Positions 3,108 through 36,947 of a stretch of 36,947 nucleotides of DNA are shown here, piece after piece (the stretch's first letter is position 1; each line of letters opens with the position of its first letter). Made by a program: the position numbers and the translations under genes. The DNA lies in contig JAHBWH010000074.1 of assembly GCA_019637115.1 (NCBI GenBank), forward strand, positions 1 to 36,947. Direction: 5' to 3'. The notes beneath the pieces were generated by a model that saw only the letters and a list, made by a program, of their open reading frames with translations, searched no databases and had not been told where the DNA came from. This DNA comes from Myxococcales bacterium. GTDB taxonomy: Bacteria > Myxococcota_A > Polyangia > Polyangiales > Houyiibacteriaceae.

Positions 3108-6100
3108 TCAGTCGATGCTGCCGGCGACGCCGGTCACTCGGGTGAAGGCCGCAGGTGCGGGTAGGCGCTGCTGGTACTCGGCGATCGACGAGCCCGTGAC
3201 GCCTGCGGTCCCGCCGCCGCTGACCTGCGCGACGAGCATGAACTCACCGCGCGCGGCCTGCGTGACGCGCTGGTAGGTGCGCGCGCCAAAGTAGGGATCC
3301 GTCTCGGTCGCCTCTTGGAGCGTCGAGCAGGTCGGCCGCTGGGTGACGCGCACACCCATCACCACCTGGTTGGGGATCGGCGGCAGGTGGCGCAGGAAGG
3401 TGCCCGGCGCGTCCGGATCCTCCATCGCCCCAACCGGGATTGGGGTCGGCTGACCCGCCGTCATCTCGCTGTCGACGTACTCCACCGCCCAGATCTTGCT
3501 GTGGCCGTAGGCGCAGGCGTTCGTGATGTCGTTCGTCGAGGTGAACGAGCCGAAGTAGACTTTGCCGTCGAAGAGCTCGAGCGGGCCGGTGACCTGCTCG
3601 CCCTCGGCGAGGCGGATCTCCCAGTTGAGGAAGCCCTCGACCTCCTGCACGACGCCGTTCTCGTCGAAGGTGATGTCCTCGCGCAGCGAGACCACGCGGT
3701 TCTCTCGGAGGCCGTCGAGCTCGTCGATGTTGCCCGTCGCCTGGATGACGATGACGCGGCCCTGCTCGTCCGAGCTGAGGATGGGCGGGAAGTAGGCAGG
3801 CTGGCCCTCCGTCGCCGTCAGGTCCCAGAACATGTCGAAGAAGGGATCCGCGTCCCAGTTGGCCGGGTTCGGGTCGCTGAAGTCGATCCGCCAGAGGACG
3901 CCGTCGGCGTCGGTCATGAACGCGCGGGTCGCGATGGTGCCGACGTCGCCCGTGAAGAACGAGACGCCGCCCGTCACCGGCGAGTTGAAGACGCTGCTGT
4001 CGAGCATCGAGAGCACTTCGCCCGTCGCGGGATCGATGAAGTACATCGACCGCCCGCGGGTGCTCCAGCAGCGCATGTTCTCGCGCGCGTTCAGGGTGCC
4101 AGCGTTCGCCGGCGGGCGGCCCTTGCCACGCGAGGGGCAGCCGAGGGGCTTGGTGAGCCGCCCATCGGGGCCGACCTCGGCGACGCCGCCGCAGGTGGAG
4201 GTCGAGAGATCCTCGCCCGCCCCGCCGGGGAGGAGCGCCATCGCGATCTCGCGGAGGTTGCCGGTGCTGTCGCGGACGAGCACCTGGCCCATGCCGGGGA
4301 TGCCATAGGTCAGGCCGAGCTCGTCGTGCGCGAGCTGCCACAAGAAGCGAGGCTCGAGCGGGTCCGTGACGTCGAGCGCGAGGTAGGCGCCGCCGCCCCC
4401 GCGGAGCCCGAAGATCATCACGGTGTGGTACTGCCCCCCGTCGGGCGACTCGCCCGCGCCGCGGCGGAAGAAGATGTCCTTGACGACCGGCGTTCCGTCC
4501 ACGGTGTAGACGTGGCCGCTGCGGGCTGCGTTGAGGCTCTTGAAGACGGCGGGCGGCACGAAGCCCCAGAGCTCGTGTCCCGCCTGGTAGGTGCCCGCGT
4601 AGGGGCCGCTCTCGACGGTGTGATCCTCGGCGAGGAAGGCGTGCATCACCCCATCGTTCGTGCCGACGTAGACGACCTTCGGGCGGCTCGCGACCTCGGG
4701 CCGCAGGCGGAAGGCGTTGTACGACTCGTCGGCGAGGTCCTCGAGGGGCGGGCCCACCACGACCGGCGACGAGTGGTAGATGTCTCCCATCTTGCTGGGG
4801 CGGCCCACGCCGTGGACCCAGTTGATCACCTGGTTGCGGAGCGCGTCCGTGCCCACCCCGAGGTGCTGACGCGAGAGCGCGCCGTTGGTGGTCGCGAAGG
4901 CGCTGAGCGTGAGCCCCGTCTGGACGGGCGCGATGCCGGGCGGGCCGGCGCCGGGCGGCGGCCCAGTCGTGCACGACCGGCCCCCTGGGCCCGAGCCGCG
5001 CCCGCCGCGTGGGCGCGCGCCGCCGCCCCCGCCGATCGGCGCGATGCCGCCCGCGTCGCCGACGAGGTATTGGTCCGTGTGGTTCGCGTTGTTCGGCACG
5101 ACCGTGAGCAGGCGTCGCGGCGTGCTGCGCGCGTCGAGCACCTCGTGGAAGCGGTCACGCGGCTCGACCGCCTGCTCGACGGGCACGTTCGTCTCGTCGC
5201 ACTCGAAGCGGCGCCGCTCGAGCACGCCCGTCCACGGCTCCCCATGACCCTGGATCCGGAAGCCCGTGTTGAACTGCGCCTGTCCGCCACGCGTGATGCC
5301 GGGCGTCGCGCCCGCGAAGGCCGAGACGGTGCGCGTCGTCGTGCCGGGCGCGGCGCGGTCGAGGATGGCCGAGAGCGCCTCGCGTAGCCGCGCGGTCTCG
5401 TCGCCGCCCGAGCCCACGAGGAAGGCGCAGTTGCCGCCCGGGCTCGCGCACGTGCCGCCCGCCTCGGCGATGGTGTTCAGCTCGCCGACGGCTTGCGGGT
5501 CGTCGACCGCGAAGCCGACGACGAAGAGCCCGCCGATCTGACCGTCGCACTCGCCCCCCGCGCCAGCCGCGCAGAGGCGCGCCGCGGTCTCGGAGGGGCG
5601 GTCGTAGGGGCAGAAGGCGTCGGGGGTGGCGGCGTCGCAGTTGTAGGGCGCGCCGCGCATGTCGGCGTTGGGGTAGCCGTCCGAGAGCAAGATGGCGTAG
5701 CGCGGCCGGCACTGCTGGAAGGCGTCGCCCGCGCCGCCAGGGGTCGAGATGCGCGCCACGTCGGGGTGGTGGTTCAGGTAGTACTCGAAGTCGGCGAGCA
5801 TCCCCGAGATGGGCGTCGGCCCAAAGGGACGGGTGCGCAGGAGCGTGTCCTGGATGCGCGCGTTGATGAGATCGAAGTCGGCGAGATCGCTGCCGACGCT
5901 GACGAGCGTGCCGCCGGGCGCGTCGCTCTGCGCGCCGTTGTCGATCATGTAGGGCTCGCCGCAGCCTGGGAAGCCGAAGGGTCGCGGCTCGCCGTACGAG
6001 AAGCCGCCCATCGCGCCCGCGGAGTCCGAGAGGTACGTCGGCACGTTGAAGATTCGCTCGGGCACGAGCATCGAGTCGTCGCGGCGGGTCGAGACGCCAT

Positions 6101-6569
6101 CGAAGGTCATCAGGCCGAACTTCACGCGGTCGGCGTAGCTGTCGAGGATTCCGTCCGCGCGCTGCGTGATGGTGGGCGCGAAGACGGTCCCGCCGATGAG
6201 CCGCGTCTCACCAGGGTGGAGGATGTGCGGGATGAAGTAGCGGTAGTCGGGCTGACCGGCGTACGACGAGTGTCGGCGATCCTCCTGGAGGCATTGGAAC
6301 CCGTCCCACGAGCCCGTGAGCGCCTCGAGCACGGTGGCCCAGCGGTTGCGCTGCGAGCTCGCGCCGCAGGAGGGGAGGCACTCGCTGCAGCTCGCCGTCG
6401 TGCAGACGCAGTCACCACGCCGCTCCATCGACCCCGACGAGTCGACCAGGAGCATCACGATCGGGCGCACGTCGCGCACGTCCGGACCTTGCGCGTGGGC
6501 GCGCGGCGCGAGCGATGCGAAGGCGGTCAGACCGAGGAGAGCGGCGAGGAGGTGGTGGTGACGTGCCAT
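3108..6569 (-). CDS. pilY1: PilY1-type type IV pilus tip adhesin/assembly protein
   Basis: A 1153-residue secreted PilY1 homologue. A signal peptide (MARHHHLLAALLGLTAFASL, ending at AHA before Gln) is followed by a von Willebrand A domain with a MIDAS motif (DSSGS, about residues 43-47) and numerous cysteines. The C-terminal half is the PilY1 beta-propeller, marked by YVGTNDGVMHAF starting near residue 634 and an Asp-rich loop (TDADGVLWRIDF, about 885) where calcium sites occur in the family. PilY1 caps or primes the pilus together with minor pilins and acts in retraction control and adhesion. A Gly/Pro/Arg-rich insertion near residues 505-545 separates the halves. The start at 6569 is preferred because AGAGG sits 9 bases upstream; ATG 6578 is an alternative with that motif abutting it. 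It follows the four minor pilin genes in one operon. Confidence 0.92.
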   Translation of the reverse strand: MARHHHLLAALLGLTAFASLAPRAHAQGPDVRDVRPIVMLLVDSSGSMERRGDCVCTTASCSECLPSCGASSQRNRWATVLEALTGSWDGFQCLQEDRRHSSYAGQPDYRYFIPHILHPGETRLIGGTVFAPTITQRADGILDSYADRVKFGLMTFDGVSTRRDDSMLVPERIFNVPTYLSDSAGAMGGFSYGEPRPFGFPGCGEPYMIDNGAQSDAPGGTLVSVGSDLADFDLINARIQDTLLRTRPFGPTPISGMLADFEYYLNHHPDVARISTPGGAGDAFQQCRPRYAILLSDGYPNADMRGAPYNCDAATPDAFCPYDRPSETAARLCAAGAGGECDGQIGGLFVVGFAVDDPQAVGELNTIAEAGGTCASPGGNCAFLVGSGGDETARLREALSAILDRAAPGTTTRTVSAFAGATPGITRGGQAQFNTGFRIQGHGEPWTGVLERRRFECDETNVPVEQAVEPRDRFHEVLDARSTPRRLLTVVPNNANHTDQYLVGDAGGIAPIGGGGGARPRGGRGSGPGGRSCTTGPPPGAGPPGIAPVQTGLTLSAFATTNGALSRQHLGVGTDALRNQVINWVHGVGRPSKMGDIYHSSPVVVGPPLEDLADESYNAFRLRPEVASRPKVVYVGTNDGVMHAFLAEDHTVESGPYAGTYQAGHELWGFVPPAVFKSLNAARSGHVYTVDGTPVVKDIFFRRGAGESPDGGQYHTVMIFGLRGGGGAYLALDVTDPLEPRFLWQLAHDELGLTYGIPGMGQVLVRDSTGNLREIAMALLPGGAGEDLSTSTCGGVAEVGPDGRLTKPLGCPSRGKGRPPANAGTLNARENMRCWSTRGRSMYFIDPATGEVLSMLDSSVFNSPVTGGVSFFTGDVGTIATRAFMTDADGVLWRIDFSDPNPANWDADPFFDMFWDLTATEGQPAYFPPILSSDEQGRVIVIQATGNIDELDGLRENRVVSLREDITFDENGVVQEVEGFLNWEIRLAEGEQVTGPLELFDGKVYFGSFTSTNDITNACAYGHSKIWAVEYVDSEMTAGQPTPIPVGAMEDPDAPGTFLRHLPPIPNQVVMGVRVTQRPTCSTLQEATETDPYFGARTYQRVTQAARGEFMLVAQVSGGGTAGVTGSSIAEYQQRLPAPAAFTRVTGVAGSID

Positions 6570-6591
6570 GCTGTACATCCTCTGGATGCGG

Positions 6592-7296
6592 TCAGAACGG
6601 GCCAGAGACGCCGCGCGCGCGCGCGTCGCTCGAGGCTTCGTGGAAGAGCTGGGGATCGCCCTCGATCGGGACCTCCGCGACCGGCGCCCCGGTGGCGTCG
6701 GTCAGGCGGAGCCGCCCGCGAGAGGTGTAGGTGGCGCTGAGGAAGCGAAGGAGGCTGTGGCCATCGCTCCGGAAGCCAGCGAGGACGCCCGTGAAACGAT
6801 AGGAGTCGTAGACGTCGACCACGACCGTCGGGGCGTAGAGTCGGCTCGTCCCGCCGAGGTCGCGGGGGCTCATCAGCGGCGCGTCGAGATCGACGGCGCC
6901 AGGGCGCGTGCGCATGAGCTGGACGAAGTCGGTGGGATAGAGGCGATAGCCCTCTTGGTCGAGACGCAGCGCGGGCTCGTAGGGTTGCGGCACCCGATGC
7001 GGGTTGGCGCCGCCGATGCGCGTGGAGCCGGCCATCGCCGCCTGGAGCGACTCGGGCCCGAAGATGTCGATCCAGGCGTGCGCGGCGACGACGCCGGACT
7101 CGCCGACCTCCTGCGCCTGGGCGCTCATGCGGTGATAACCCGCCGCGCGCACCTCGGTCGTCGTCGTGTGGATCGCGAAGACCGCGAGCGCCGTCGTGGT
7201 CAGCAGCACGAGCATCACGACGAGCATCACGGCGCCCTCCTCGGAGGCGCGGCGACGGCGGGCGGAGCGCCGGGTGGGTGCGGTGGGTCGCGTCAT
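6592..7296 (-). CDS. pilX: PilX-like minor pilin assembly protein
   Basis: A 234-residue protein. A basic leader (MTRPTAPTRRSARRRRASEE) is followed by GAVMLVVMLVLLTTTALAVF, a hydrophobic prepilin-like helix with likely cleavage after Gly. A helical stretch (AQEVGESGVVAAHAW) then leads into a mostly beta globular end. This layout matches PilX-type proteins encoded between pilW and pilY1. PilX-like minor pilins join the priming complex under PilY1. The start overlaps the stop of the pilW-like gene by four bases (ATGA, 7293-7296). The next gene, pilY1, begins about 22 bases downstream. The canonical Glu at position 5 of the mature pilin is not evident, as often seen in PilX/GspK-type subunits. 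Confidence 0.78.
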   Translation of the reverse strand: MTRPTAPTRRSARRRRASEEGAVMLVVMLVLLTTTALAVFAIHTTTTEVRAAGYHRMSAQAQEVGESGVVAAHAWIDIFGPESLQAAMAGSTRIGGANPHRVPQPYEPALRLDQEGYRLYPTDFVQLMRTRPGAVDLDAPLMSPRDLGGTSRLYAPTVVVDVYDSYRFTGVLAGFRSDGHSLLRFLSATYTSRGRLRLTDATGAPVAEVPIEGDPQLFHEASSDARARGVSGPF

Positions 7297-8540
7297 GGCC
7301 TCAAGTTCCGGCTCGCCACGTTGGGCAGGAAGATCTCGGTCTCGACGGTGCGGACGCGCGCCGCCGGCCGCCCCGCGCCGTCACCGTTGACGTCGTAGCG
7401 GGTGAGCGGCTCTTCGCGGGACGCGCGCGGGACGAAGGGGAAGCTCGACTCCTCGGCCGCCGTCCGCGCCGAGAGGCGCAAGATGACGCTCCGGACGCGG
7501 TGCGGGACGGCCGCGGGGTTGGTGTTCAGGTTGGCGAGGAGGTTCGCCGACTGCGGACCGTCGACGCGCTGCAGGTTCGGGACGACGCCTGGTGCGGTCT
7601 GCTGGTCGAAGATGAACTCGTAGTCCACCTCGGCGACGTGCTCGAGGATCACGCGCGTGCTCCCGGCGATGGGCGCGCCGGTGACGAAGTCGAGCTCGCG
7701 CCGGACGAGCACGGCGTTGGTGCGGCCGGTCGCGCGGTCGAGCGCCGCGTCGCTGCCGACCTGCAAGAGCGCCTGCAGGCTCGGCTCGTCGCGGGGGTCG
7801 AGGACGATGTACTCGATGCGCGAGAGCGGCGCGATCATCGCCCCGTCGGCGAGCCCGCCGACGCAGACCCCGCCCACCGACATGCCGGGCGCGAAGTTGA
7901 CGAGCGGGAGCGTGCCGGCCGGGGTCACGCCCGTGATCCGCTGGTAGAAGTGGTTGCCCTGCATGGTCTCGATGTGGACCATCCGGCCGGTCCGGAACGC
8001 CGCTTGGAAACGTTCGGCGTCGGTCACGCGCGCGGCGAGCGGCCCCGTCGCGAGCAGCTCGGTCGGGCCCCACTGAGTGAAGTCGCGCTGAAAACCGTGC
8101 CAGCCCGCCTGCAGGAACGCGCCCTGGCCCGTGGCCTGGAGGGTGCTCACGAGGTAGACGTCGCTCGTCGCGTAGTTGCCGGTCAGGCGCAGCGTGTCGG
8201 CCTCGACCAGGTTGTTCGCCGCGTTCGGGAGGACGACCGTCTGGTGGTTGTCGAGGAACTCCACCGCCTGTACCTCGCGCGGCGGAGTGGCGCAGCGCTG
8301 GTCGCGCATGCTGTTCGGCGTCGCGAGGTAGCCAGCGCGGGCGATGTCGCGGCGCATCTGCTCGAGCGCCATCCGCAGCGCCGTCTGGGTGTGCGCGACG
8401 CGCTGCTGCTCGTGGAAGTGCCGCGCGGACGCGCTGCTGACGTAGTAGATCGCGCCGATCGCGATGAGGCCGGCGACGAGCGCGACCATGAGCTCGAGCA
8501 GCGTGAAGGCCGCGCGCGAGCGATGAAGGCGCCGCCTCAT
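7293..8540 (-). CDS. pilW: PilW-like minor pilin
   Basis: A 415-residue type IV pilus minor pilin. The N-terminus MRRRLHRSRAAFTLLELMVA carries a type III prepilin signal, with Phe12 as mature residue 1 and Glu16 as Glu5. The residue before the cleavage site is Ala rather than the usual Gly. A long hydrophobic helix (ALVAGLIAIGAIYYV) and a large beta-rich globular domain follow, including SRIEYIVLDPRDEP and VDYEFIFDQQ, features typical of PilW. The ATGA overlap with the pilV-like stop (8537-8540) supports this start; an in-frame ATG at 8552 would add four residues. PilW works with the FimT-, PilV- and PilX-like subunits and PilY1 at the pilus tip (known for the family). Confidence 0.85.
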   Translation of the reverse strand: MRRRLHRSRAAFTLLELMVALVAGLIAIGAIYYVSSASARHFHEQQRVAHTQTALRMALEQMRRDIARAGYLATPNSMRDQRCATPPREVQAVEFLDNHQTVVLPNAANNLVEADTLRLTGNYATSDVYLVSTLQATGQGAFLQAGWHGFQRDFTQWGPTELLATGPLAARVTDAERFQAAFRTGRMVHIETMQGNHFYQRITGVTPAGTLPLVNFAPGMSVGGVCVGGLADGAMIAPLSRIEYIVLDPRDEPSLQALLQVGSDAALDRATGRTNAVLVRRELDFVTGAPIAGSTRVILEHVAEVDYEFIFDQQTAPGVVPNLQRVDGPQSANLLANLNTNPAAVPHRVRSVILRLSARTAAEESSFPFVPRASREEPLTRYDVNGDGAGRPAARVRTVETEIFLPNVASRNLRP

Positions 8541-9166
8541 AGCGGCCTCCATCGGATGAGCGTCGACGAGGTGACGGCGCGGAAGCTCGGGGTCGCCGAC
8601 GCGAGGTCGGCGGTGATCGCCGCCGCGTTGGAGCTGCACTGCTGCGAGAGCGCGAACTGGGTGCCGTTCTGGCGATGGAAGACCGTGCGCGAGCGCGCGC
8701 GGATCACGTCCCCGACGACCGCCCACTCGAGCTCGACGTGGGTGCAGAAGACGGCGCCCGCGTCGGTCGGCATGTCGCGGCCTGCGAAGTCCGCGGTGGC
8801 CGAGAGCCAGCGCGACGCGCCCGCGACCGGCTCGTCGATCGGGACGACGAGCGGCGGGCGCCAGCCGGTGTTCACCTCCCGCAGGAAGCGCGTGAAGGCG
8901 CGGGGCGCGTCCTCCTGGCCCGCGCGGTTCCAGAGCAGCGCGTCGCGCTCGAGGCGGTCGAACCACGTCCGGTTGCGCTGAGTGGCGATCGACATCATCC
9001 GCGCCTCGGAGTTGCCGCGGATGGTCGCCGTCTGCATCGCCAAGATGCCGAGCGAGCCGACCGTGATGATGCCGACGGCGATCATCACCTCGATGAGCGT
9101 GAAGCCGCGCTCACGGCGGTGGGTACGGACGCGCGTCCGTCGGGCCACGGGGTGGCGCGCGCTCAT
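8537..9166 (-). CDS. pilV: PilV-like minor pilin
   Basis: A 209-residue prepilin. A basic leader ends at RERG (Gly21), followed by FTLIEVMIAVGIITVGSLGI, which is a canonical prepilin peptidase site with Glu26 as mature Glu5. The globular domain is short and contains two well-separated cysteines (FCTHVELEW and SQQCSSN) that could form a C-terminal disulfide loop. Length and motif match PilV-type minor pilins. The start at 9166 overlaps the stop of the upstream FimT-like gene by four bases (ATGA, 9163-9166), and its stop overlaps pilW in the same way, so the subunits are translationally coupled. Cleavage by PilD and assembly into the tip complex are expected from the family. Confidence 0.86.
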   Translation of the reverse strand: MSARHPVARRTRVRTHRRERGFTLIEVMIAVGIITVGSLGILAMQTATIRGNSEARMMSIATQRNRTWFDRLERDALLWNRAGQEDAPRAFTRFLREVNTGWRPPLVVPIDEPVAGASRWLSATADFAGRDMPTDAGAVFCTHVELEWAVVGDVIRARSRTVFHRQNGTQFALSQQCSSNAAAITADLASATPSFRAVTSSTLIRWRPL

Positions 9167-9771
9167 CGGAGCACCCTCGCGTCCCCGCCGAGCGGGACGA
9201 CGACCTGGCGGGTCACGCCGTCGCCGTCGTTGCGTCGGATGTCGAAGACCACGCCACCCTGGAGGAAAGCGTCGGTGCTCTGGTCGGAGAAGCGGGCGCC
9301 TGCGTCGGCGCTCCAGAGGACCCGGCCCGAGGGCTCGAAGCAGACGTCGAGGTTGCCGCCACCGCCGACCCGCAGCACGCGCAGCTGCTGCCCGACGGTC
9401 GAGCGCTGGGCGGCGTCGACCCACCCCCGGCAGAGCCGGTTCTCGGCCGTGCAGCCTGGCGCCGTCACCGTCGCCCAAGGCACCGACCCGCAGCGATTGC
9501 TCGTGCCGCGGTGCAGCTCGAACGAGCCGTTGCCGGCGTTGTTGAAGCGGAGCAGGTGCGCGCGCCCGAAGCCGACCGCCTCCGAACGTCCCTGGCGGGC
9601 GAGCCGGACGATGTCGAGGGAGAGCTCGTTCGCCTTCCGCTCGCCGGAGGCGGCGCCGACGCTCGGGGCCGCGAGCGCCGCCACCACGCCGATGATGGCC
9701 ACGACGATCATCAGCTCGAGCAGGGTCAGGCCTGCCTCGCGCCGGTGCTGCCGTCGGGGGTGGGAGCTCAT
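9163..9771 (-). CDS. FimT/GspH-like pseudopilin, first gene of the pilus operon
   Basis: A 202-residue pseudopilin. The leader MSSHPRRQHRREAG is followed by LTLLELMIVVAIIGVVAALA, a type III signal with cleavage after Gly14 and Glu19 as mature Glu5. The first mature residue is Leu rather than Phe. The C-terminal half resembles GspH/FimT domains: RLARQGRSEAVGFGRAHLLR, a four-cysteine globular region, and a closing GGDARVLR. It heads the priming-complex operon. ATG 9771 gives a normal leader and codon use, but has no ribosome binding site. ATG 9810 has AAGAGGA about 11 bases upstream and would add 13 residues with poor third-position GC. The choice between them is open. Confidence 0.83.
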   Translation of the reverse strand: MSSHPRRQHRREAGLTLLELMIVVAIIGVVAALAAPSVGAASGERKANELSLDIVRLARQGRSEAVGFGRAHLLRFNNAGNGSFELHRGTSNRCGSVPWATVTAPGCTAENRLCRGWVDAAQRSTVGQQLRVLRVGGGGNLDVCFEPSGRVLWSADAGARFSDQSTDAFLQGGVVFDIRRNDGDGVTRQVVVPLGGDARVLR

Positions 9772-9925
9772 CTCGAAATCGGAGGAATGCAAGGGACGTT
9801 CCCTATCCATGAGTAGGCGTATCCTCTTGGAATCGTGTCGCATGCGGGCGATTTCCTGGCGAGCGGGCGTAGAAGTGCCTGCGAGGATAAGAAAAGTTTT
9901 CCAGCCGGGCGAAACTACTGCCGAA

Positions 9926-9974: not shown

Positions 9975-10150
9975 GAGAAGATGGTCGGCGCGGAGAGGAC
10001 CGTCGGCCGCGGAGATTGGTGCCGAGAGGACCGTCGGCCGCGGAGAAGACCGTCGGGCGCGGAGATCGGGCGCCGAAAGGACCGTCGGCCGCGGAGAGGA
10101 CCGTCGGGTGCGCAGAGGACCGCGCACCGCGAGGACAGTCGGACGTGGGC
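9975..10150. repeat. 19-bp direct repeat array in a divergent intergenic region
   Basis: About seven imperfect copies of the 19-mer GAGAGGACCGTCGGCCGCG (variants GAGAAGACCGTCGGGCGCG, GAAAGGACCGTCGGCCGCG). Two units are followed by an extra 12-13 bases (GAGATTGGTGCC-like). The array fills most of the space upstream of the plus-strand gene at 10177, so it occupies that gene's promoter region. No spacers of constant length are present, so it is not a CRISPR array. Confidence 0.85.
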
Positions 10151-10614: not shown

Positions 10615-10673
10615 GTCCGAGACCGCGTCCGAGACCGCGTCCGAGACCGCGTTCGAATCCGACTCCGAGTCGT
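10614..10673. repeat. 12-bp tandem repeat between convergent genes
   Basis: About four copies of GTCCGAGACCGC, decaying to TTCGAATCC/GACTCCGAG, start at the stop codon of the plus-strand gene and run to within 10 bases of the minus-strand stop at 10683. It shares GTCCGAGACC with the array at 50-141. Confidence 0.85.
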
Positions 10674-13609: not shown

Positions 13610-13740
13610 GCGGCGCCGCGACAGCGACGCCGCGACAGCGGCGGCGCCACGGCAGCGACGCCGCAACAGCGGCGGCGCCACGGCAGCGACGCCGCAACAG
13701 CGGCGGCGCCACGGCAGCGACGCCGCAACAGCGCCGCCGC
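13610..13740. repeat. 31-bp minisatellite between convergent genes
   Basis: Three identical 31-bp units (13638-13668, 13669-13699, 13700-13730), each containing GGCGCCACGGCAGCGACGCC, are flanked by a degenerate partial copy on the left (13610-13637) and a short partial copy on the right. Exact identity among the units suggests recent expansion or homogenisation. No spacers are present, so this is not CRISPR. It lies between the Nudix gene and the PEGA gene stop. Confidence 0.92.
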
Positions 13741-13791: not shown

Positions 13792-15954
13792 TCAGTCGGT
13801 GCGGGCGACGTCGAACTTGTAGGTCACGCCGAGGCGGAAGTAGAGCTGCAGATCCTCGTTGCCGCCACCGAAGACGTCACCGAGGATGCGCCGCGGCTGA
13901 CCGAACGCGCCCTCGAACGAGCCCCAGGCGTTCCAATGCTTGGTGAGGATGAACTCGAGCGAGCCACCGAGGCGGAAGCGCGCGAGGTTCTGGCGGCCGG
14001 CGATGGTGTTGACGCTGCCGTCGACGCGGATGGGCGTGCCGTCGTCCATGCACCCGTTCGCCGACCGGCAGTCGCTGTCGCGGGCGTTCCAGCCCCAGCG
14101 GTCGCTCGTGAAGTCGAAGCCCGCCCAGAGCGTGAAGTTGCCGGCGTTCAAGAAGTGCAACGAGAGCAGGCCCTCTACGCTCGTGAAGAAGCTGTTGGTC
14201 GGGTGGTTGGGCGCGTCCGGGTTCACCATCTCGTCGCGCGCCGTTGGGCTGCGGTTGGGCCCGATGCCGCCGCCGAAGCGGACCTGCGCGCCGAAGCTGA
14301 ACTGCGGGACGGGACGCCAGCCCGCCTTCACGCGGCCCTCGAACTCGGTGAGCCGGAAGAACGTGCGCATGCCGACGCCCGCCTCGAGCCAATCGAAGAT
14401 GCCGATGCCGAGCCGCCCCTCGAGCAGGTGCGGCCAGCCCGCGCTGAAGTCGAGGAGCGCGAGATCATCGGGCAGCGTGGCGGCGGAGCGCGCCACCGCT
14501 TGCCGGTGACGCTCGCGCCGCGCCGCGTTGCGGGCGGCGATCTCCTCCTCGGTGAGCTCGCCCTCGCGCACGAGGAAAACCTCGATGACCCGCGCCTCGT
14601 CGCTCGGCGCGAAGATCGACTGCTCGGTGTGCTCCCGGTAGCCGTCGGCGCGCACGGAGAGGACGTGTGATCCCGAGGGGATGTCCCCCTCGAAGGGCAC
14701 CGGCCCGACCGGCTCGCCGTCGACGTAGAGCTGCGCCCCGCGCACGTTCGCGACGACACGCACCGGCGCGCCCACGACGCTCAGCGTAGCGTCGATCTCG
14801 CAGTTCTGTCCCGGCGCCGTGTCGCACGTCGTGCGGAACTCACGATGCCCGCGCGCGCGCACGATGATCGCGTGCGTCCCCGGGGCCACCTCCGAGAGTA
14901 CCACCGGCGCGACGCCTCGCTCCTCACCGTCGACCAGCACGGTCGCGCCCTCGACGTTCGCGTTCACCACGATGCGCCCGGGCGGGAGCGCGACCCGCTG
15001 CAGCTCGATGCTGAGCACCTGCTGGCGCCCCTGCTCGATCGTCACGGTCCGCTGCACCGGCTCGTAGCCCTCGGCGCGCGCCTCGACGATGTGCTCGCCC
15101 GGCGCGACGTCGGTCGCGGTGGCGGGGGCCTCGCCGACCGCCTCGCCGTCGAGGAAGACGATGGCGCCGCGGGCGTTGACGAGCACCCGGAGGCTCCCGC
15201 CCGTCGACGGCGCGGGCCGCAGCGTCGCGTGCACGACCGCGCGCTGCATCGCGATCACGCGGACGGTCTCGCGGTGCGGGTTCTGCCCCTCCGCCGTCGG
15301 GCGGACCTCGATGACGTGGTCGCCCTCTTCGAGGCCCTCGATGATCGCGGGCGTCTGTCCGCGAGACTGGCCATCCACGAAGACCTCGGCCCCGCTCACG
15401 TCGGCGGCCACGAGGATCGAGCCCGTGCGCGGCGCCTCGCGCTCGAGGATCACGGGCAGCGTGAGGACCTGCCCGCCGGAGACCTCGACCCACTGCGTGA
15501 ACGTGACGTAGCCCTCGCGGCTGACCTGCACCATGTGCCGGCCCGGCTGGACCTGGTTGGTCGTCGGGACGTTGCCGACCGGCTGTCCGTCGATGCGCAC
15601 GGCTGCGTTCGCGACGTCCGGGTTGCCCGCGAGCACCGTGATGGTGCCGAGGGCCGGCAGCGTGGCCCGGAAGACCTCGCCCGCGCGGCGGACGTTGATC
15701 GGCAGGCGCGTGGTCTCGTGGCCTTCTTTCTTGAAGATCAGCGTGCGCTGGCCCCGCAGGATCCGAACGCGCCGCAGCGGCGTGGTCCCGATCGGGTTGC
15801 TGCTCTCGTCGTCGACGAAGACCTGCGCACCGGCGGGGGTGCTCTCGACGTTGACGGCGATCGTGCCGCGCTGCGCGTAGGTGGTCGAGGAAGCCGCGAC
15901 GATGCACCCAAAGAGCGCGAGGGCGGCGAGCACGGGAAGACTCGTTCGATTCAT
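13792..15954 (-). CDS. Six-PEGA-domain protein with C-terminal outer-membrane barrel
   Basis: A 720-residue exported protein. A signal peptide (MNRTSLPVLAALALF, ending STTYAQ) is followed by about six PEGA repeats of ~70 residues. Each has a strand, a V(F/Y)VDG turn (AQVFVDDE, AAVRIDGQ, AEVFVDGQ, AIVFLDGE, ATVLVDGE, AQLYVDGE), a Pro-Gly-x-H turn and an x-GY/GH end. A charged helical segment (TEEEIAARNAARRERHRQAV) leads into ~220 residues of alternating beta strands ending LQLYFRLGVTYKFDVARTD, typical of an outer-membrane barrel. PEGA modules are thought to bind peptidoglycan or cell-surface material. The ATG at 15954 has GGAGGAA about 5 bases upstream. It is a single-gene unit flanked by a strong hairpin. 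The role is unknown; envelope anchoring is an inference. Confidence 0.86.
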   Translation of the reverse strand: MNRTSLPVLAALALFGCIVAASSTTYAQRGTIAVNVESTPAGAQVFVDDESSNPIGTTPLRRVRILRGQRTLIFKKEGHETTRLPINVRRAGEVFRATLPALGTITVLAGNPDVANAAVRIDGQPVGNVPTTNQVQPGRHMVQVSREGYVTFTQWVEVSGGQVLTLPVILEREAPRTGSILVAADVSGAEVFVDGQSRGQTPAIIEGLEEGDHVIEVRPTAEGQNPHRETVRVIAMQRAVVHATLRPAPSTGGSLRVLVNARGAIVFLDGEAVGEAPATATDVAPGEHIVEARAEGYEPVQRTVTIEQGRQQVLSIELQRVALPPGRIVVNANVEGATVLVDGEERGVAPVVLSEVAPGTHAIIVRARGHREFRTTCDTAPGQNCEIDATLSVVGAPVRVVANVRGAQLYVDGEPVGPVPFEGDIPSGSHVLSVRADGYREHTEQSIFAPSDEARVIEVFLVREGELTEEEIAARNAARRERHRQAVARSAATLPDDLALLDFSAGWPHLLEGRLGIGIFDWLEAGVGMRTFFRLTEFEGRVKAGWRPVPQFSFGAQVRFGGGIGPNRSPTARDEMVNPDAPNHPTNSFFTSVEGLLSLHFLNAGNFTLWAGFDFTSDRWGWNARDSDCRSANGCMDDGTPIRVDGSVNTIAGRQNLARFRLGGSLEFILTKHWNAWGSFEGAFGQPRRILGDVFGGGNEDLQLYFRLGVTYKFDVARTD

Positions 15955-16375
15955 CTCGTTCCTCCAGCGGCCACGGGCCGCCTCGGCGACACTACCAAGG
16001 GAGTCGATCGGTGTTTCCGAAAAACGAACCCCCGCGCATCGACGCACGGCTTCACGCAAACTTCACGCCATCGCCGCCGCGTGCCACGGCACCTTCCAAG
16101 CGGCGCTCGGGCCGGAGGAGATCCGTCGAGATCCACGCATGACGGCGGAAAAGAACAGCGCCACCGTGTACCTCCACGAGGCGATCACTCCGCGCCTCCG
16201 ACGAAGCGATCACTCCGCGTTCGCGCAGAGCCCCGTCCGCGGGCGCGGTCCAGAAACACCACGTTGGGCCTCTGGGCGCTGGGAGATCTTCCGTCTCGCG
16301 GCGATCGCTCGCCGATCGCGCAGCACCCCTCGGGTGGGGCTTCTGGGCGCTACGAGACCTTCCATGTCGAGGCGA
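15955..16375. other. 421-bp spacer holding the PEGA promoter region and decayed repeats
   Basis: No gene that I can support. The half nearest the PEGA gene should carry its promoter; the 8-base direct repeat GCGTGAAG, in GCGTGAAGTTTGCGTGAAG (minus-strand reading), lies around 16050-16070. The half nearest 16376 is filled with decayed copies of the lipoprotein 3' end, described as a separate repeat feature. Confidence 0.5.
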
Positions 16376-36866: not shown

Positions 36867-36947
36867 TGCGTCCGGCTCCGTGTCCGGCTCCGTGTCTGGC
36901 TCCCGGTCCGTGTCCGGCTCCGGGTTCGGCTCCGTGTCGGGCTCCGT
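36867..36947. repeat. 6/12-bp tandem repeat after the TetR gene
   Basis: Tandem GTCCGGCTCCGT units with variants (GTCTGGCTCCCG, TTCGGCTCCGTG) start 13 bases past the TetR stop and run to the window end. It has the same 6-base period as the arrays at 50-141 and 10614-10673. The array may continue beyond the window. Confidence 0.85.

Follow-up and report, generated by a model that had tools for sequence, protein, structure and literature searches.

A predicted outer-membrane barrel with a periplasmic arm of six PEGA modules in a myxobacterial group, in which most relatives are encoded beside a cell-wall polymerase

The outer-membrane protein OmpA consists of a small barrel and a periplasmic part by which the cell wall is held; the barrel comes first in the chain and an OmpA-like wall-binding domain last. 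LpoP is, like LpoA and LpoB, an outer-membrane activator of peptidoglycan synthases. LpoA and LpoB are anchored in the outer membrane and are proposed to cross the wall to an inner-membrane polymerase (PMC4111904, PMC9593243), with LpoA forming an elongated protein about 145 Å long and about 30 Å wide (PMC4111904). In the OmpM/SlpA proteins of the Terrabacteria, an N-terminal periplasmic part and a C-terminal barrel together join the outer membrane and the wall (PMC10628300, PMC9388160), SlpA itself combining SLH domains and a coiled-coil stalk with trimeric barrels of 30 strands (PMC10628300 / PMC9388160). Adindla and Guruprasad (2004, PMC2447325) described the PEGA domain in archaeal and bacterial cell-surface proteins, and their abstract contains no barrel-fused array of six modules.

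The gene analysed here lies in a window of 36,947 nucleotides (the whole stretch of DNA that was studied, contig JAHBWH010000074.1 of the Myxococcales assembly GCA_019637115.1) and encodes a protein that resembles each of these systems in part. Like OmpM/SlpA, it is predicted to have an N-terminal periplasmic part and a C-terminal outer-membrane barrel; however, SLH is absent from the families listed at E 0.01 for 25 members, there is no long coiled coil, and the barrel is a small one of ten strands. Whereas OmpA begins with its barrel, here the arm comes first, and no OmpA-like peptidoglycan-binding domain was matched among the families listed for the 25 members. A parallel to the Lpo activators is that the family shows linkage to a polymerase gene (31 of 41 genomes, but not for the window copy). 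Lpo proteins, however, are lipoproteins with TPR-like or other folds, whereas here there is no conserved lipobox Cys and PEGA modules are joined instead to a predicted barrel anchor; and whereas the partner of Lpo is a bifunctional PBP, the linked enzyme in this case is a GT51 domain fused to an AsmA-type groove. As in the PEGA surface proteins, PF08308 is found in an extracytoplasmic protein. The best NCBIfam match is to the LIC10124 family lipoproteins (NF047815, best stretch residues 250-363), which are envelope proteins that match the PEGA region, at 79.6 bits, far below the cut-off of 650. Since lipobox, SLH and OmpA-like domains are all lacking, the family falls outside the Lpo, OmpM/SlpA and OmpA families; by analogy, it may work like the Lpo activators or the OmpM/SlpA tethers, if our reading of its function is right, as a member of none of them. 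Neither a barrel-fused PEGA array nor an AsmA-GT51 fusion is described in the titles and abstracts of the literature searched, from which subscription journals mostly fall outside.

The gene and its PEGA array

The open frame at 13792-15954 on the minus strand of the window is stop-free and encodes 720 amino acids, and because full-length relatives at 44-73% identity are found in other genera, it is not a chance reading frame. It begins with the ATG at 15954, which has GGAGG a few bases 5' of it and matches the start positions of relatives; an in-frame TTG upstream, at 16059, was considered as a start and set aside, as it would leave the signal peptide buried. Scans for promoters and terminators turned up no signal above chance. 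The protein begins with a signal peptide; six PEGA modules and a short helix then lead to a C-terminal domain of about 220 residues. The Sec signal peptide (residues 1-28; 15871-15954, minus strand), judged by eye from the sequence and the alignment together with the start codon and GGAGG, is of type I, with AxAQ-like ends in relatives, and is probably cleaved after TYA or AQ. A lipoprotein reading was also considered, in which Cys17 (in FGC) would form a lipobox-like motif, but this residue is not conserved in the aligned relatives and the signal peptide is thus taken to be without a lipobox.

Pfam PF08308 matches six stretches of the protein (E 5.6e-68; 225.2 bits against a cut-off of 20.8), and a profile search of the genome likewise yielded six separate PEGA matches in the frame, each above the cut-off. 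The preliminary description had proposed a signal peptide followed by about six PEGA modules and suggested a profile count as a check, and the sequence, Pfam and the genome search all bear this out; its statement that PEGA domains usually occur singly or in pairs fails here, as arrays of three or four are common in the same genome. The six modules (residues 31-459), all encoded on the minus strand and all beta-sandwiches in the AlphaFold2 model, comprise residues 31-98 (module 1, 15661-15864), 103-168 (module 2, 15451-15648), 177-243 (module 3, 15226-15426), 253-316 (module 4, 15007-15198), 328-389 (module 5, 14788-14973) and 395-459 (module 6, 14578-14772), delimited by the model together with a profile match or, for module 4, the best Pfam stretch. 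In the model a helical linker (residues 469-485; 14500-14550, minus strand) then leads from the arm to the barrel. The fold of module 2 (103-173) resembles the transthyretin-like domain of carboxypeptidases, including carboxypeptidase D (Z 9.7-9.9 over 71 residues). As a separate observation, 90 PEGA matches reach E 0.001 or better in the 8.9-Mb genome.

Compared with one another, the modules of the window protein are 21-39% identical, whereas the same module compared position by position in relatives is 31-78% identical. The modules are thus unlike each other but kept by position, so that the array did not arise by recent tandem expansion, and these comparisons indicate that it is old and nearly fixed in length: 28 of 39 family members have six modules and 11 have five, nine of the latter forming one clade that is without module 1. 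By our own estimate, six modules of about 35 Å each would reach about 200 Å when fully extended.

The C-terminal domain and its orientation

The AlphaFold2 model, built from an input alignment of 25 sequences, has a mean pLDDT of 85 (mostly above 90 in the strands of the barrel) and a pTM of 0.44, meaning that the individual domains are confident and their relative arrangement is not. On the strength of this model, fold matches and the alignment, residues 496-715 (13810-14469, minus strand) are predicted to form a ten-stranded outer-membrane beta-barrel, the ten strands spanning residues 498-715. The best match found with Foldseek and VIA-align is a designed ten-stranded barrel, TMB10_163 (Z 15.8, 1.9 Å over 133 residues), followed by OpcA (Z 15.7), Pla (Z 15.4), pOmpT (13.9) and OmpT (12.9); the top Z values are tied, so no single natural barrel family is picked out. 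At E 10, Pfam has no family for the C-terminal 270 residues, and a sequence search for solved relatives returned none that was convincing. Most of the barrel strands show hydrophobic alternation, which is weak in strand 1, and in the last strand Y705, G709, T711, K713 and F714 are invariant in 25 of 25 sequences (Y...G.T.KF). A C-terminal aromatic beta-signal is therefore present, and its F is the final residue in several members; in the window protein, six residues follow F714.

Outer-membrane barrels usually have long, variable loops on the outside and short turns on the inside. Here the odd-numbered gaps between strands (1, 3, 5, 7 and 9) measure 3, 4, 15, 33 and 19 residues and the even-numbered ones (2, 4, 6 and 8) measure 2, 2, 3 and 4, and all barrel indels among the 25 sequences fall in or beside odd gaps, with none in even gaps. 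Taken with the usual rule, the long and indel-bearing odd gaps place both termini, and with them the PEGA arm, in the periplasm. The preliminary description had suggested an outer-membrane barrel at this end of the protein, with a soluble domain as the alternative, and PEGA repeats presented in the periplasm. Modelling confidently gives a transmembrane barrel of ten strands rather than a soluble domain, and the confinement of indels to odd loops in 25 relatives supports the predicted periplasmic side for the arm. An architecture of a six-PEGA arm and a ten-stranded outer-membrane barrel is, as a prediction, well supported.

Elsewhere in the same genome, four other PEGA proteins, L003, L010, L012 and L013, also end in Phe after a C-terminal stretch of 113-172 residues, and may be further PEGA-barrel fusions.

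Family members and the AsmA-GT51 polymerase gene

When genomes were searched for the family, all 57 gave some match, the weaker ones through PEGA regions, and 41 of the 57 carried a strong member (E 1e-50 or better); of 140 genomes of the phylum, 12 gave a match to the barrel domain searched alone. A search of named genomes with the single protein gave nothing, and the same search with an alignment recovered relatives. The window's own genome has two members, the window gene and a second copy at G000:C1:56923-59031, which are 60% identical. In a quick tree, with SH-aLRT support only and with long branches for L107 and L113, the window copy clusters with L061 and L063 (SH-aLRT 96) and then with L065 (98), and this group adjoins the clade that contains the genome's other copy. 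The two members and their placement in the tree identify the window gene as one of two paralogues, and the comparison indicates that it is a relocated duplicate of a polymerase-linked copy, which the same genome keeps elsewhere.

What is new here is the linkage of this family to a polymerase gene. In 31 of the 41 genomes with a strong member, a count that omits the 16 of 57 genomes whose best match is weaker than E 1e-50, a member lies just downstream of a gene for an AsmA-GT51 protein of about 790 amino acids, linkage being defined as the same strand and within 10 kb (the median gap between matches is 247 bp). The gene is also linked in 21 of 27 named loci, a set that largely overlaps the 31 of 41 genomes and is not independent of it. 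An example is L064:560-2899 (plus strand), and for the second copy in the window's own genome the corresponding gene is at G000:C1:59413-61677 (minus strand), 382 bp away. The encoded inner-membrane protein starts with a membrane helix, continues with an AsmA-clan groove and ends in a GT51 peptidoglycan polymerase domain. By profile search, GT51 is present in 18 of 18 of these neighbour proteins and DUF748, which we take to belong with the AsmA clan, in 17 of 18, with YdbH-like matches in three and YhdP in two. The groove region (residues 49-407) resembles the lipid-transfer groove of LPD-3 (Z 10.3) and that of TamB (Foldseek E 0.007), and the GT51 domain resembles the Aquifex enzyme (Z 18.1, 2.4 Å), with E559, D560 and E616, presumably the active-site acids of GT51, invariant in the alignment.

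The exceptions are of several kinds. Three genomes (G004, G011 and G035) carry the two genes on different contigs, and in six (G024, G026, G030, G039, G048 and G053) there are contig edges or no long polymerase match. Among the 27 named loci, six are without the polymerase gene (L061, L063, L068, L069, L065 and L070), the last two having almost no upstream sequence in the data. Conversely, no PEGA gene was found nearby in any of the 11 loci examined (all of a set of 12 but L132) in which the polymerase gene occurs without the PEGA barrel or is unlinked from it. In some lineages the linked member is directly followed by tmk, a gene for a PDZ protein and Cox15, and because tmk and the PDZ gene travel along, the linkage may reflect inherited gene order. 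The PDZ protein of this conserved block (L075:10426-11037) is weakly similar to GspC of type II secretion.

The window copy has no AsmA-GT51, ECF/FecR, tmk, PDZ or Cox15 genes alongside, and none for the secreted protein of about 370 amino acids that accompanies the ECF/FecR genes in other lineages. Its neighbours encode an M3 peptidase, a NUDIX protein and a PQQ-propeller protein (Pfam), the last of which is shared with L063. At L063:2-10163, the window-type gene stands directly downstream of mreB-mreC-mreD-PBP2-rodA-mscS. The idea that window-type copies generally adjoin the mre operon was considered and rejected, as it holds in one of seven genomes examined: in five others the mre operon has no PEGA-barrel neighbour, and in the sixth the contig ends after rodA.

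Other features of the window are recorded here in their own right. A 31-bp tandem repeat (13610-13740, 4.2 copies, 95% matches) was found by a repeat scan in the gap that separates the NUDIX gene from the 3' end of the PEGA-barrel gene. Related repeats of a GTCCG-rich 12-bp unit occur at 48-132, 10615-10669 and 36870-36947, two of them at contig ends, where they are perhaps the cause of the assembly break. A type IV pilus tip cluster at 3108-9843 (minus strand) encodes PilY1-like and PilX-like proteins and two proteins with prepilin methylation motifs, and a tandem repeat with a unit of about 50 bp lies at 9984-10122, upstream of the prepilin-like genes.

Possible roles in the envelope

Our preferred reading, to which we assign a probability of roughly 0.4, is that the protein, anchored in the outer membrane, provides a periplasmic arm for the synthesis or attachment of the cell wall. 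The ten-stranded barrel would hold the protein in the outer membrane, and the N-terminal arm of six PEGA modules would reach from it into the periplasm, cross the wall mesh and contact the wall or wall-building enzymes; wall synthesis or attachment would thereby be coupled to the outer membrane, as Lpo does with PBP1A/B in E. coli. That the sister gene adjoins a cell-wall polymerase gene in most relatives suggests, from gene order, that the family links the outer membrane to wall growth. This wall context consists of GT51 for the linked paralogues and of one mre operon for the window type, and the window gene, as a moved duplicate, would most likely have a related job with another partner. Several findings count against such a coupling. 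There is no wall-synthesis gene beside the window copy, and its clade (window, L061 and L063) is unlinked from GT51; linkage is absent in ten of the 41 genomes, several of them at contig edges; in the single-contig genome G043, 938 kb separate the two genes; the AsmA-GT51 gene, which occurs across the order, is widespread without a PEGA barrel; and no PEGA module has a known peptidoglycan-binding fold.

Another possibility, which we regard as somewhat doubtful, is that the arm is a passive spacer or tether that only sets a distance or keeps the outer membrane near the wall, as OmpA, OmpM and SlpA do through other domains, leaving the enzymes unaffected. The near-constant number of modules despite large divergence would fit this, as would the two invariant cysteines of module 5 (C377 and C385, invariant in alignments of relatives and probably joined in a disulfide) and the lack of any match between the arm and an enzyme family in Pfam. 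However, no SLH, OmpA-like or other wall-binding domain is listed for any of the 25 members, and a pure spacer would leave the polymerase gene next door in relatives unexplained.

Other flanking genes would be accounted for if the protein were the sensor of an ECF sigma/FecR surface-signalling system, in which the barrel senses something in the membrane or outside it and the arm relays this to an inner-membrane FecR-like protein. Downstream of the linked member in many relatives outside one clade are genes for a secreted protein of about 370 amino acids and then for an ECF sigma factor and a FecR-TPR protein, the last two for example at L064:6604-8818 and L108:11800-13618, and the window itself has an ECF sigma gene 11-12 kb from the PEGA-barrel gene. 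We nevertheless consider this role quite unlikely: unlike in the FecA-type TonB-dependent transducers, no plug or STN signalling domain is matched and the barrel is of ten strands; the nine members of one clade, together with L071, L080 and L109, have no FecR gene in the available flank and yet keep GT51; and there is no FecR beside the window copy. It is also unlikely that the barrel is the working part, as a small channel, enzyme or adhesin carrying the PEGA array as periplasmic decoration. In favour of this are the matches to the adhesin OpcA and the omptin Pla and a barrel conserved as much as the modules (44-77% against 31-78% identity); against it, the likeness is to barrels in general, with a designed barrel tying, and the long loops vary in length, as those of a conserved active site or ligand-binding pocket would not.

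Within the preferred reading of an arm that serves the wall, a more specific and, to our minds, unlikely form can be put forward. The linked pair would be a trans-envelope wall-synthesis module, in which the inner-membrane polymerase, its GT51 domain borne on an AsmA-type lipid-transfer groove, works with a barrel whose six-PEGA arm of almost constant length passes through the wall to the polymerase and reports outer-membrane distance or gaps in the wall to it, and the window gene would be a free second copy serving another synthase, for example the MreB/RodA elongasome. If true, this would be a wall-synthesis module so far undescribed.

The coordination of the outer membrane with wall growth is known in detail mainly for Lpo lipoproteins of the E. 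coli type. If the proteins described here do the same work, this myxobacterial group would use a barrel-anchored PEGA arm together with a polymerase that is joined in one protein to a lipid-transfer fold. We know of no established role for the PEGA domain, and PEGA arrays would gain a concrete hypothesis, as modules for reach within the periplasm.
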